Shown: one piece after another, positions 1 through 5,225 of the stretch | Numbering within the stretch: position 1 is the stretch's first letter | Layout of the letters: every line of letters begins with the position of its first letter | IMG/VR virus record: IMGVR_UViG_3300028909_000077 | Location: 1 to 21,570 of that record | Length of the DNA stretch: 21,570 bases | Direction: 5' to 3' (one strand) | From: a virus | Translations under genes and position numbers: made by a program | Notes under the pieces: model-generated | Seen by the model: the letters and a program-made list of their open reading frames with translations, nothing else | Told to the model about the DNA's origin: nothing | The model's database searches: none

Positions 1-304
1 CTCCGGCTCCGGCTCCGGCTCCGGCTCCGGCTCCGGCTCCGGCTCCGGCTCCGCGTCCGTCTCCGCGTCCGTCTCCGGCTCCGGCTCCGTCTCCGGCTCC
101 GTATCTGGCTCCGGCTCCGTCTCCGGCTCCGGCTCCGCGTCCGTCTCCGGCTCCGTCTCCGCGTCCGTCTCCGGCTCCGGCTCCGGCTCCGGCTCCGGCT
201 CCGGCTCCGGCTCCGGCTCCGTCTCCGTCTCCGGCTCCGTCTCCGGCTCCGGCTCCGTCTCCGTATCCGGAGCCGGCTCCGTCTCCGTATCCGGAGCCGG
301 CTCC
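1..304. repeat. Hexanucleotide tandem repeat, array 1
   Basis: About 50 units of a hexamer read on the plus strand as GGCTCC, with variants GTCTCC, GCGTCC, GTATCC and GTATCT. Two units at 269-274 and 293-298 read GGAGCC, the reverse complement of the main unit. They sit inside a 24-bp higher-order unit (263-286) that is partly repeated from 287, which shows block duplication rather than only single-unit slippage. The array runs off the left edge. Confidence 0.95.
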
Positions 305-352
305 GGGGGCAGAGCCGTGATGCTTACTTTTTATCTTCAATAAATTTTGCAT
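1..352 (-). CDS. (Gly-X)n low-complexity protein, copy 1 (C-terminus beyond window edge)
   Basis: The gene starts at the ATG at 352-350 and is still open at base 1, so at least 117 codons are present. The first 16 residues ([16 protein letters not shown]) are basic. From about residue 17 every second residue is Gly, alternating with Ala, Asp, Arg, Tyr or Ser, encoded by GGA-NNC hexamers. The reading frame stays intact across about 50 hexamers. The ATG lies one base after the TGA of the preceding gene (354-587), with a GAAGAG element upstream, so translational coupling is likely. Its 5' end matches that of copy 2 (4045-4083) over 39 bp with one mismatch. By analogy with copies 2 and 3 the missing end should carry a short charged tail. 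Function is unknown; it is probably disordered. The opposite strand could encode (Gly-Ser/Val-Ser)n, but the homology boundaries and neighbours favour this strand. Confidence 0.6.
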
Positions 353-353
353 G

Positions 354-587
354 TCATGGCATCTCTTCAAATGTTGAGAACACAAGCTCATCCACGGCAA
401 ACGATCTTTCGCCGGAAAGCCGCCGCTTCATCATGAACACCATGAGTATGGGCACGCCTGGGTGCTTAACCTTGGTTTTTATCAGGCACTCCTGCAAGTT
501 TGCAGCCTCTATTTCTATCCAGCTAGTTTCGTCACCCCAAGGATTTTTGAAGGGGGTTTTGCCCGCTTGCACTTTAAAACGGAGCAT
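354..587 (-). CDS. Hypothetical small phage protein (77 aa)
   Basis: This 77-aa ORF starts with ATG at 587, directly after the TAA of the upstream gene (588-590), and ends one base before the ATG of the first repeat gene. It has no strong Shine-Dalgarno motif, so it probably depends on coupling to the upstream gene. The protein begins MLRFKVQAGKTPFKNPWGDE and is mixed-charge and soluble, with no signal peptide or membrane segment. The N-terminal layout (short basic strand, then a WIEIEA-like strand and a helix containing LQECLIKTK) resembles the small protein at 901-1095 in general style, but I see no convincing homology. Function unknown. The same-strand packed context supports it being real. 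Confidence 0.6.
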   Translation of the reverse strand: MLRFKVQAGKTPFKNPWGDETSWIEIEAANLQECLIKTKVKHPGVPILMVFMMKRRLSGERSFAVDELVFSTFEEMP

Positions 588-899
588 TTATCTATCTGCC
601 ACAACAATAGTAAAAACGGCTAAAAACCCGCTTCGATCAACCGCTACGTTTTCTGGCAGCGCATCCATATAGATGTGCTCTCGGCAGTCAGAACCTATAA
701 TGCTACGCCTAATGCGCTTTAGCGCAGATGAAAACAGCGCAGAGTTTGCTATTCCAGCATATTTTGGGCGCGTGCGAAACTTGGCAATACTATAGTGTGC
801 GCTAGTGAACACAGGCACCTGGGCGTATTCTCTATGCAAACTACCACCCACGTTGTAAGATTGTCTTATTTTAGCCTTAAAACAAATATGTGCTGGCAT
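588..899 (-). CDS. Hypothetical protein (103 aa)
   Basis: The gene starts with ATG at 899, one base after the TGA of the 901-1095 gene. A GGAG motif lies in the overlapping end of that gene at suitable spacing. The protein is basic in its first two thirds, with HREYAQVPVF and KFRTRPKYAG segments, and ends in a hydrophobic strand (FLAVFTIVVADR). No domain is recognised. It is followed without a gap by the 354-587 gene, so these three genes and the first repeat gene form one translation-coupled chain. Confidence 0.6.
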   Translation of the reverse strand: MPAHICFKAKIRQSYNVGGSLHREYAQVPVFTSAHYSIAKFRTRPKYAGIANSALFSSALKRIRRSIIGSDCREHIYMDALPENVAVDRSGFLAVFTIVVADR

Positions 900-900
900 A

Positions 901-1095
901 TCATTCTCCGTTGTTTTTCGCGTGCCAAACGACTACCCAATCGAGATTATAATTAAACCCCTCAATCTCGTACACATCCCAATCTGGTGGTGCTAGTTTT
1001 GCTTTCGACAACGCATCCATTGGATTGGCCGCATCAAAGAGTGTGCCAAAATTAGTCGCGTACCCTTCTTTCCTGTAGCGTGCACGATATCTCAT
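901..1095 (-). CDS. Hypothetical small protein (64 aa)
   Basis: ATG at 1095 with an AGGA element about nine bases upstream. The protein starts MRYRARYRKEGYATNFGTLF, with an aromatic and basic N-terminus, a central helix (MDALSKAKL) and an aromatic C-terminal half containing WDVYEIEGFNYNLDWVVVW. This pattern of strand, helix with alternating Ala/Lys, then strands is common in small phage proteins of about 60-70 residues, but I cannot name a family. It is the first gene after an 81-bp gap downstream of the VWA gene, and a copy of the 16-bp palindrome lies in that gap. Confidence 0.6.
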   Translation of the reverse strand: MRYRARYRKEGYATNFGTLFDAANPMDALSKAKLAPPDWDVYEIEGFNYNLDWVVVWHAKNNGE

Positions 1096-1135
1096 GGTTT
1101 AAGTCCTAATAGCGTTTATCAGGATGATTACCCGA

Positions 1136-4083: not shown

Positions 4084-4402
4084 AGCTGGCCTCGGCAACT
4101 TCTGTGGTGGGGATTATTTCGATGGCGTTTGTTAGGTACACTTCATGTGTGTAGTTAAGTCGGCCACCCTTAATACCGTTGTTCGCCACAGCCGATAATG
4201 AGAGCCCCCCACCTTCCCACTTCCACAAGCGTAGCGCGTTCATAAGATGAACCTCCATGCCATCCACGTGCAACACGTCGCCGATATGCACGCCTGCGGA
4301 ATAGGTGCGCACCAAGCAGCGGCGCCCCACCATAGGGTGCTTGTGGTTTGGCTCACTCAGCCGCGCAGCCATTACTTGTTCCATACCGTTGTCTTTTGTC
4401 AT
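4055..4402 (-). CDS. Conserved phage protein of DUF6948-like type (115 aa)
   Basis: ATG at 4402 with an AAAGGAAAAG ribosome binding site. The core, with [36 protein letters not shown] and [12 protein letters not shown], matches my memory of a small phage family (DUF6948) with the pattern VRTYSAGVH - RLWYWxGA - LSxxA - AIEIIP. Its function is not known. The last nine residues (YAKFIEDKK) come from the sequence that in another frame starts repeat gene 2. Copy 1 carries the same DNA without this gene, so the C-terminus was probably replaced when the repeat gene arrived. The family name is from memory and would need a profile search. Confidence 0.72.
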
Positions 4403-4427
4403 GTGCTTTTCCTTTGTGTTATCAGCG

Positions 4428-4477
4428 TAATTGCTGGGTGGTGCTTACTCTGCGAAGTAAGCACCACCCAGCAATTA
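4428..4477. terminator. 21-bp perfect inverted repeat hairpin
   Basis: The left arm (4428-4448) and right arm (4457-4477) are perfectly complementary over 21 bp with an 8-base loop. The stem begins immediately after the TAG stop of the 4478-4726 gene. No T-run follows on the minus strand, so it may protect the RNA end or be processed rather than terminate. A variant of the 16-bp palindrome (4445-4460) forms its apex. Confidence 0.75.
4445..4460. promoter_or_regulatory. 16-bp dispersed palindrome, copy 2 (variant)
   Basis: TTACTCTGCGAAGTAA, with one imperfect pair compared with the other copies. It lies at the apex of the 21-bp hairpin, so here the motif is part of a larger structure. Confidence 0.65.
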
Positions 4478-4726
4478 CTATTTTATTAGCTTTGGTTTTG
4501 ATACATCTGTGTTTTGGTTGTCATAACCAAAACGGTTTTCAAATATCTGCTCGCACTTTATGAACTCACAATGCTGATACATACTCATTTTGAACATAAG
4601 GATCGCCGAAGCAGCATCATTAGCGCTGTACTCGCGCCCCAGCAAAGAGCCATCTACGACGTGGCGGATATTTTTGGCACGAAATATAATGTTCCAGCGC
4701 GGTTTGTGGTTGGTAATTAAGCTCAT
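4478..4726 (-). CDS. Hypothetical protein (82 aa)
   Basis: The start is the ATG at 4726, with ACAGGA about 12 bases upstream; a longer TTG start at 4759 would overlap the preceding gene's stop and is less likely. The protein begins MSLITNHKPRWNIIFRAKNI and contains a small Cys pair (CEFIKCEQIF). The N-terminal half (KPRWNIIFRAKNIRHVVDGSLLGREYSANDAASAIL) looks like a small alpha/beta fold with a strand, a loop and a helix. I do not recognise it. It sits between repeat gene 3 and the big hairpin and ends with TAG. Confidence 0.6.
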   Translation of the reverse strand: MSLITNHKPRWNIIFRAKNIRHVVDGSLLGREYSANDAASAILMFKMSMYQHCEFIKCEQIFENRFGYDNQNTDVSKPKLIK

Positions 4727-4742
4727 AACACAGCATATCCTG

Positions 4743-4841
4743 TTAGGTTGTTGCTTCAATAAGTTTCTCGCGCAGCCTAAGCCACTCGGTTTTATCCGTC
4801 ATGTAAGGCGTGGTGCACTCCATCTCGGTCGGGGGCGCGTA
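4743..4841. repeat. 99-bp direct repeat, copy B
   Basis: Identical to 3733-3831. It encodes the C-terminal tail and stop codon of repeat gene 3. Outside this segment the two loci differ at once: the bases after the stop codon are unrelated. Confidence 0.95.
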
Positions 4842-5225
4842 AGTTCCGGCTCCGGCTCCGGCTCCGGCTCCGGCTCCGCGTCCGTCTCCGCGTCCGTCTC
4901 CGGCTCCGGCTCCGTCTCCGTCTCCGGCTCCGTATCTGGCTCCGTCTCCGGCTCCGTCTCCGGCTCCGCGTCCGTCTCCGGCTCCGGCTCCGCGTCCGTA
5001 TCCGGCTCCGTCTCCGGCTCCGTCTCCGTATCCGGCTCCGTCTCCGGCTCCGCATCCGGCTCCGCGTCCGTCTCCGCGTCCGTCTCCGGCTCCGGCTCCG
5101 TCTCCGCGTCCGTCTCCGTCTCCGCGTCCGTCTCCGTCTCCGCGTCCGTCTCCGCGTCCGTCTCCGCGTCCGTCTCCGCGTCCGGGCGCGGAGTCGTGGT
5201 GCTTATTTTTTACAGTGTGCAGCAT
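4743..5225 (-). CDS. (Gly-X)n low-complexity protein, copy 3
   Basis: From ATG at 5225 the protein is 160 aa. The TAA of the upstream gene ends one base before this ATG, and that gene's last codons contain GAGGTGGAG as a possible ribosome binding site. The N-terminus ([15 protein letters not shown]) is a diverged version of copies 1 and 2. The (Gly-X)n body is about 114 residues and richer in Arg and Asp than copy 2, giving repeated GRGDG stretches, some Tyr and one Cys. One Gly is replaced by Arg (GARYG). The last 31 residues are identical to copy 2. The differing array lengths (34 and 57 units) show that length changes freely as long as the frame is kept, which any hexamer change does. Function unknown. 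Confidence 0.62.
4842..5183. repeat. Hexanucleotide tandem repeat, array 3
   Basis: Exactly 57 hexamers. The variants GCGTCC and GTCTCC dominate the right-hand part (5101-5183), where they alternate, while GGCTCC dominates the left end. A GTATCT unit is shared with array 1, which suggests exchange or common descent. Confidence 0.95.

Follow-up and report, generated by a model that had tools for sequence, protein, structure and literature searches.

Glycine-rich tails are known from proteins of the Sm/LSm/Hfq type, such as the Gly-Arg tails on SmD1, SmD3 and SmB. Alternation of glycine with a second residue (Gly-X) is found in the Gly-Asp and Gly-Asn repeat proteins of Myxococcota and other bacteria. 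The Hfq of Acinetobacter baumannii carries a glycine-rich repetitive C-terminus, according to the available part of PMC5663733. The locus considered here is part of a virus record of 21,570 bases (IMGVR_UViG_3300028909_000077, positions 1 to 21,570; "the window" means this whole stretch). The record has genes for a terminase, a portal-type protein and a major head protein, and its terminase shares 44% identity with those of Rhizobium phages. Within positions 1-5225, three minus-strand open reading frames (ORFs), named A1, A2 and A3, consist of a leader and an array of GGA-NNC units encoding Gly-X pairs. The middle one, A2, overlaps the end of a gene of the family DUF6948 (PF22253), for which Pfam states no function. 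On genomic grounds, DUF6948 and a Gly-X gene are established as a two-gene phage module. Its closest precedent is the C-terminus of Acinetobacter Hfq. The pair resembles Sm/LSm/Hfq proteins in combining a predicted Sm fold with a glycine-rich repetitive partner. Unlike in those proteins, a gene of its own, overlapping the first and hypervariable, encodes the low-complexity part, and DUF6948 gave no Sm sequence match.

The window ORF at 4055-4402 matched PF22253 with an E value of 5.7e-22 and 78.1 bits, above the curated cut-off of 27. IMG/VR was scanned for arrays of GGA-NNC units and then for arrays of any GG-NNNN unit; counts from these array-first scans refer to the matches listed. Clustering the neighbours of 59 array loci revealed one family that recurred in 22 of them (median distance 22 nt), and by Pfam this family was DUF6948. 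A DUF6948 profile had matches in 43 of the 59 loci. DUF6948 occurred in 51 of 72 viral loci with an array of the class and in 11 of 166 without one (Fisher p 3e-24), the class having been partly selected on low synonymous entropy. At least four of the 11 "no-array" loci (L018, L146, L155 and L197) did hold Gly-X arrays that the filter had missed.

Two further sets were collected by DUF6948 while ignoring arrays, taking the 80 best of 506 relatives for set 1 and the 80 best of 102 for set 2. They contain 74 and 71 distinct ORFs, none in common, and set 2 represents another subfamily. Altogether, at least 10 Gly-X units were found within 1,200 nt downstream of DUF6948 in 142 of these 160 viral loci. 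The remaining loci comprised 11 with 4-9 units and seven with none, five of the seven on contigs ending within 141 nt. In set 1, at least 10 units were found in 72 of 80 loci by a first detector, which misframed a few loci (L398, L405, L423, L448 and L451), and in 71 of 80 by a stricter one. The stricter detector left six loci with 4-9 units and three with none: L452, where the contig ends 141 nt past the stop; L424, where an array of Gly, Cys, Asp and Tyr was excluded by the filter; and L444, where the run is degenerate. In set 2, 71 of 80 loci had at least 10 units, five had 4-9, and four, on contigs ending within 88 nt after DUF6948, had none. Arrays were present in one of 75 (set 1) and none of 71 (set 2) upstream control windows, and in none of 65 antisense controls. 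Contigs ended within 300 nt after DUF6948 in 15 of 80 and 19 of 80 loci, and within the same distance before it in 1 of 80 and 3 of 80.

A tblastn search returned 16 annotated phage records with DUF6948, one being the RefSeq copy of another, and a Gly-X array adjoined DUF6948 in 15 of the 15 examined. Among these, the array was upstream of DUF6948 in MW202478, and two fecal records had just 6-8 units followed by a C-terminal domain. In Pectobacterium phage Koroua both genes are in public records, unlabelled (XDF89606.1 and XDF89605.1), and in Iodobacter phage PhiPLPE the Gly-X gene is unannotated. In Chlorobiaceae phage CV-1-33 (MT192033.1; L366) the product QOE32032.1 is a Met-Ala-Leu repeat, apparently the wrong frame of a Gly-X array, and in MW202478.1 (L373) the DUF6948 coding sequence UOF77468.1 is extended by Met-Ala-Leu over the array, apparently also in the wrong frame. 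Three plasmid-collection records matched, and both of those examined contained the pair. A Neisseria gonorrhoeae record (NZ_CP119142.1; L464) had DUF6948 at three places, with an unlisted 95-residue Gly-X ORF behind the one examined. Of 398 genomes screened in the phylum to which the Sphingomonas seed belongs, the seed alone had PF22253, so chromosomes of bacteria in that phylum rarely carry DUF6948. A cellular scan gave 118 listed array loci, with DUF6948 at the Sphingomonas locus only; its pattern (GGNNRY) differed from the viral patterns, making the viral-cellular contrast not strictly matched.

The gene pair is thus widespread and apparently undescribed: it occurs in cultured phages and, with 506 relatives of DUF6948 from a single scan, in viral contigs by the hundred. 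It seems to have stayed unnamed partly because repeat filters hide the arrays, assemblies stop there, and at least one gene is annotated in the wrong frame. An earlier note, made from the window's sequence, knew of no described family with this layout, and none was found in Pfam, PHROGs, NCBIfam, PADLOC or the literature searched. The Gly-X proteins had no Pfam match above cut-off and no PHROGs, NCBIfam or PADLOC model; Pfam rows for TrAA12 and CFAP143 were under their cut-offs and driven by composition. No paper naming DUF6948, the Gly-X link or the Sm-like fold was found, and searches on Gly-X proteins, hexanucleotide repeats, DUF6745, DUF6948 and hypervariable arrays returned nothing on the family. 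Judged by titles and the beginnings of abstracts, none of the listed works on phage Sm-like proteins concerned it. Of the works listed on phage simple repeats, judged in the same way, one dealt with simple sequence repeats of T7-like phages and none with this family.

The genes concerned in the window are as follows.

1..352, minus strand: A1 Gly-X gene, 50 complete units after the leader, 3' end lost at the window edge
354..587, minus strand: small gene, 77 residues, no family, immediately upstream of A1
3733..4083, minus strand: A2 Gly-X gene, 116 residues, overlapping the 3' end of DUF6948 by 29 nt in another frame
3733..3831, minus strand: A2 tail, shared; DNA identical in A3, three copies in the related record G001
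3832..4035, minus strand: A2 array, 34 GGA-NNC units (52 in G001)
4055..4402, minus strand: DUF6948 (PF22253) gene, 115 residues, Pfam match, predicted Sm/LSm-like fold
4743..5225, minus strand: A3 Gly-X gene, 160 residues, 57 units, from the ORF reading
4743..4841, minus strand: A3 tail, shared; same DNA as the A2 tail
4842..5183, minus strand: A3 array, 57 units, from the repeat and ORF reading
5227..5463, minus strand: small gene, 78 residues, no family, immediately upstream of A3

The earlier note had described three paralogous (Gly-X)n genes of one plan within 5.2 kb. This was confirmed, with support for the coding reading, and a recount gave the same array lengths (at least 50, 34 and 57 units). 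Its GGA-NNC unit holds as the main pattern, with exceptions: A1 contains two GGCTCC (Gly-Ser) units, AGATAC (Arg replacing Gly) occurs once each in A1 and A3, and the last unit of the A3 array is GGAACT. The common tail of the two complete copies is likewise real, A2 and A3 ending in an identical 99 nt, and encodes 32 residues plus the stop rather than the 31 residues reported. Tandem Repeats Finder scores of 328-395 place the window arrays beyond chance; their exact lengths depend on the assembly. The A1 ATG is 1 nt past the stop of the upstream gene. A3 begins in the same manner, its ATG 1 nt past the upstream stop and preceded by a ribosome-binding-like site, GAGGTGGAG. X is mainly Ala, Asp or Arg in these arrays versus Ser, Tyr and Asp elsewhere, and there is a single DUF6948 gene for the three Gly-X copies, as in G001. 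On account of this alphabet and of three copies per DUF6948, this phage is an unusual member of the Gly-X class.

G001 (IMGVR_UViG_3300029952_000027; 55,688 bases) is near-identical to the window, with five mismatches and five gap openings over 20,261 columns aligned in one piece. All three Gly-X genes are present in it, and the tail occurs three times, so A1 also has the tail there; A1 is complete with 53 units, and the A2 array is longer than in the window by 18 units. The earlier note had proposed searching other phages for the tail and the KHHG N-terminus. Of the loci examined, the window and G001 alone had the tail, and it and the KHH leader seem to be specific to this phage. A1 has a mosaic make-up. 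In its leader and opening units it resembles A2, and its 3' half matches that of A3, with which it shares the rare AGATAC and, in G001, the final GGAACT. The arrays therefore recombine between copies. A2 is the probable ancestral site, and A1 and A3 look like later copies.

A perfect inverted repeat with 23-nt arms was observed 25-76 nt upstream of DUF6948, at 4427-4478. The arms of this hairpin could pair with the A2 leader: the inner 12 nt, AGTAAGCACCAC, recur at 4048-4059, spanning the DUF6948 stop and the A2 leader. In 79 other loci, pairing between the 5' region and the junction showed no excess (mean 6.57 vs 6.58 nt), and pairing of at least 10 nt occurred in 2 of 79 loci versus 1.6% of controls, so the hairpin looks particular to this phage.

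An AlphaFold run using the window DUF6948 and 34 relatives predicted a small barrel with a strongly bent five-stranded sheet and a predicted local distance difference test (pLDDT) score of 81. The best PDB matches were Sm and LSm proteins (1i8f chain G; template modelling score 0.77 by target length). All 50 rows listed from Foldseek and the 50 from VIA-align (Z 7.3-8.7; Z under 8 can reflect a mere common arrangement) were Sm, LSm, SmAP or small nuclear ribonucleoprotein/spliceosome entries, some of the latter with no chain named. A single-sequence model of the A2 protein (pLDDT 53) showed an unstructured array and a helical tail. Families within 3 kb of DUF6948 in 80 loci, named from single cluster representatives (eight of the nine listed), included DNA methyltransferases (10), a repressor-like regulator (7), RecT (6), a RecE-like exonuclease (6), another exonuclease (5), Sak4-like (5) and single-stranded DNA-binding protein (SSB)-like proteins (4). 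The recombination, SSB-like and methyltransferase neighbours point to early expression.

We give about an even chance to the reading that A1, A2 and A3 are copies of gene 2 in this conserved module, in which an Sm-like protein would have a hypervariable low-complexity partner in trans. Gene 1, DUF6948, encodes a small protein of predicted Sm/LSm fold. Gene 2 usually begins inside or just past the end of gene 1 in another frame, and is thus probably translated by coupling (i.e., a stop followed by a restart). Its product has a short leader and then Gly-X pairs, X being Ser, Tyr, Asp or Asn in most phages. As Sm-like rings, DUF6948 may bind nucleic acid (RNA or single-stranded DNA), most likely RNA, and the Gly-X protein, presumably associated with it, would serve as its low-complexity tail. 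That tail would act through composition and length, with aromatic and acidic "stickers" set between glycines, and the complex would be concentrated or regulated early in infection. Because the order of units would hardly matter, slippage and unequal recombination could reshuffle the array freely, with selection preserving the mix of residues. Amplification of the module in this phage would have left A1 and A3 behind unrelated small genes. The disordered partner might further form a natural library, coded by composition and free of order, in which reshuffled Gly-Tyr, Gly-Ser and Gly-Asp units tune a condensate-type function or escape from host recognition, with no reverse transcriptase involved, a suggestion we regard as tentative and rather doubtful. 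On that suggestion, tailed phages would carry a widespread RNA-binding Sm-like protein whose partner is rewritten at array level within a single phage population. The pair is also a clean natural test of whether composition, and not sequence, makes a low-complexity protein work, and of the use that phages make of Sm-like proteins.

The array was downstream of DUF6948 on the same strand in all 52 junctions measured (51 viral, one cellular). An in-frame ATG was present in 45, most commonly (15 junctions) 13 nt before the end of the DUF6948 stop codon in DNA like GTATGGAAR. Relative to DUF6948, the Gly-X frame was +2 in 34 junctions, +1 in 16 and 0 in two. These ATG positions and mixed frames fit a coupled restart better than one programmed shift. 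That programmed frameshifting yields a DUF6948-(Gly-X)n fusion is unlikely: it would suit the overlapping or abutting ORFs of most pairs (as in the A2 overlap), the natural DUF6948-(Gly-X)43 fusion in one ORF of L224, and the seven junctions without an in-frame ATG, but the relative frame is inconstant, most junctions offer an ATG, and A1 and A3 have their own starts 1 nt past unrelated genes. A fixed frameshift was ruled out by the variation of the relative frame.

All six frames were compared in 54 of the 68 arrays among the matches listed, 14 having been dropped for short flanks. In the Gly-X frame, 43 arrays had an ATG within 120 nt and 21 a Shine-Dalgarno-like site. The five other frames had an ATG in 12, 2, 8, 1 and 14 arrays and Shine-Dalgarno-like sites in 2, 0, 1, 0 and 0, and three of them had stops within 7, 2 and 35 of the 54 arrays. 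Codon use was measured in 68 Gly-X ORFs from DUF6948-first loci, with no preselection on synonymous entropy; in 12 of the 80 loci no ORF passed the filter. Within arrays, the entropy had a median of 0.00 bit for the Gly third base, 0.00 bit for synonymous X codons and 1.78 bits for X. Pooled over arrays, these values were 1.46, 1.11 and 2.17 bits, respectively. Total synonymous variation was under 0.3 bit in 42 of the 68 arrays. Ser (37%), Tyr (28%), Asp (24%), Asn (4%) and Phe (3%) made up most of X. From one phage to another the DNA unit changes and the residues are kept, and within most arrays it is mainly the residues that vary. Selection therefore acts at the protein level, and the Gly-X genes are very probably protein-coding.

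It is accordingly quite improbable that the array works as DNA or RNA (a quadruplex, a regulator sponge or a recombination site) with an incidental Gly-X frame. Such a role would agree with the synonymous bases being nearly fixed within most arrays; GG every six bases could form two-layer quadruplexes, and GGA repeats resemble CsrA sites. Across phages, however, the Gly third base may be C, T, A or G and the X third base C or T with the residues unchanged, Ser is mostly TCN and rarely AGY, and ATG and Shine-Dalgarno-like sites are concentrated in the Gly-X frame. A non-coding repeat was ruled out on this frame and codon evidence.

Array turnover is much faster than that of the flanks. The leader MSKLIKPEKY, in Setonix as MSKLIKPERY, is common to eight related phages. 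The Pectobacterium phages Ymer and Amona do not differ by a single edit over the 900 nt before the array and the 600 nt after it, yet 12 unit edits separate their arrays, of 32 units in Ymer and 29 in Amona (the last partial one counted). Phe units were present in the Ymer array and absent from that of Amona, and this missing unit type is hard to explain by assembly collapse. Ymer and Abuela were identical over the flanks and the array stretch. Seven of the eight phages came from one study of an organic waste sample (PMC11445585), which used NextSeq sequencing (300-cycle kit) and metaSPAdes assembly; the word glycine appears nowhere in the main text of that paper. The single hexanucleotide of an array is a mark of this fast turnover and not a class-wide unit. 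The one hexanucleotide of the earlier note is the unit type here; units of other phages begin with GGC, GGT or GGG and encode a common residue set. In our reading, fast homogenisation erases neutral variants and selection maintains the residue mixture.

Neutral slippage, in which simple repeats without a function expand at a permissive site behind DUF6948, has a slim chance of being the explanation. Tandem repeats expand easily, and array length and order vary freely; on the other side, in both subfamilies almost all DUF6948 loci that have enough sequence carry an array, and the X alphabet is kept and synonymous variants are scarce within most arrays, where drift should leave both. Bacterial Gly-Asp and Gly-Asn arrays among the matches listed reverse this pattern, X being mostly fixed and synonymous bases varying, and a bacterial-type Gly-Asp repeat was ruled out on this opposite codon pattern.

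A silk-like or adhesive protein of the virion or cell surface is also decidedly improbable. Gly-Ala and Gly-Ser alternation resembles fibroin, and an annotated tail-fibre gene lies on the other strand just before DUF6948 in seven Pectobacterium isolates. Against this, the leaders lack a hydrophobic signal sequence (by eye), and the RecT, RecE-like, Sak4-like, SSB-like and methyltransferase neighbours form an early-type setting. Targeted hypermutation of codon positions 1 and 2, as by a diversity-generating retroelement, is the least probable of the readings: it shares with the arrays fast residue change in fixed surroundings, variation mostly at those two positions, and X codons mostly one base from TAC/TAT (S, F, C, D, N and H around Y), but unit number changes too, GGA units keep their A, and it was ruled out by the lack of a reverse transcriptase (PF00078) in seven of seven records (five deposited complete; the fragment G000 and G001 included; the template repeat was not searched for).

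Several observations weigh against the module reading. The best Foldseek E value was about 1e-3, with none below 0.001, and the best Z was 8.7. A profile of the 35 DUF6948 sequences found no Sm chain among PDB sequences at E <= 10, with one non-Sm chain at E 0.33. With these borderline scores and no sequence match, the Sm assignment is one of fold. That either protein is made, and what it would bind, are deductions from genomics. Seven of the 52 junctions have no in-frame ATG, and a natural fusion was seen in just one of 163 DUF6948 ORFs. Synonymous variation reached 0.3 bit or more in 26 of 68 arrays, and 16 of the 59 array loci had no DUF6948 in the DNA examined. A1 and A3 have no adjoining DUF6948 in the window, and the Ala/Asp/Arg alphabet of this phage makes the Tyr "sticker" idea fit less well. 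Short-read assembly may have introduced errors into the array lengths of the Ymer group, the window and G001. Finally, the module does not explain the C-terminal domains to which some arrays are fused.

Across phages, many arrays followed one plan: a short leader, tens of Gly-X units, and then a stop or a tail. Array length was about 10-70 Gly-X pairs, with a median of 30 in the DUF6948-first loci. The layout that had been called unusual is thus widespread as a leader plus (Gly-X)n bound to DUF6948, and it is the multi-copy arrangement that is uncommon, though recurrent. At least two Gly-X ORFs were found in six of 80 DUF6948 loci, one of which, L453, counts overlapping frames. Among the array loci, L030, L050, L147, L155 and L224 have 2-5 each. 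In L050, FARRADDPLQALTTLS closes three neighbouring Gly-X ORFs, and its variant FVRRADDPLQALTQLSCQ closes a fourth; in L029, one Gly-X ORF ends in FARRADDPLQALTTLS and one in FVRRADDPLQALTQLSCQ. This multi-copy shared-tail plan is like that of the window, and no DUF6948 was found in the examined DNA of L050 and L029.

The fused C-terminal domains were of at least three kinds, represented by L003/L008/L099, L020/L026/L208 and L036/L197. In tblastn searches against phages, two of them had no match and a third matched two fecal records. In L369, L370, L371, L003, L008 and L099, a Gly-X segment adjoins a conserved domain that bears FAHG and LTGSC motifs within one protein; these proteins had no Pfam match above cut-off (L003, L008 and L099) and no PHROGs family (L003). 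The L069 array is fused to a weak DUF6745 match (E 1.3e-4, under cut-off). Collagen is built of Gly-X-Y triplets and RTX proteins of GGXGXDXUX nonapeptides; neither repeat type applies, all three window genes having a Gly-X dipeptide period. A known anti-phage defence was also set aside, with no PADLOC family for the window DUF6948 and A2 at E <= 0.01.

Elsewhere in the window, the small ORFs at 588-899 and 4478-4759, between the repeat genes, had no PHROGs match. Positions 1177-2475 encode a VWA-like protein with a HEICH metallopeptidase-type motif (by eye) and the PHROG label "HNH endonuclease". The adjoining gene at 2558-3721 encodes a MoxR-type ATPase (by eye), with the PHROG label "ATPase".

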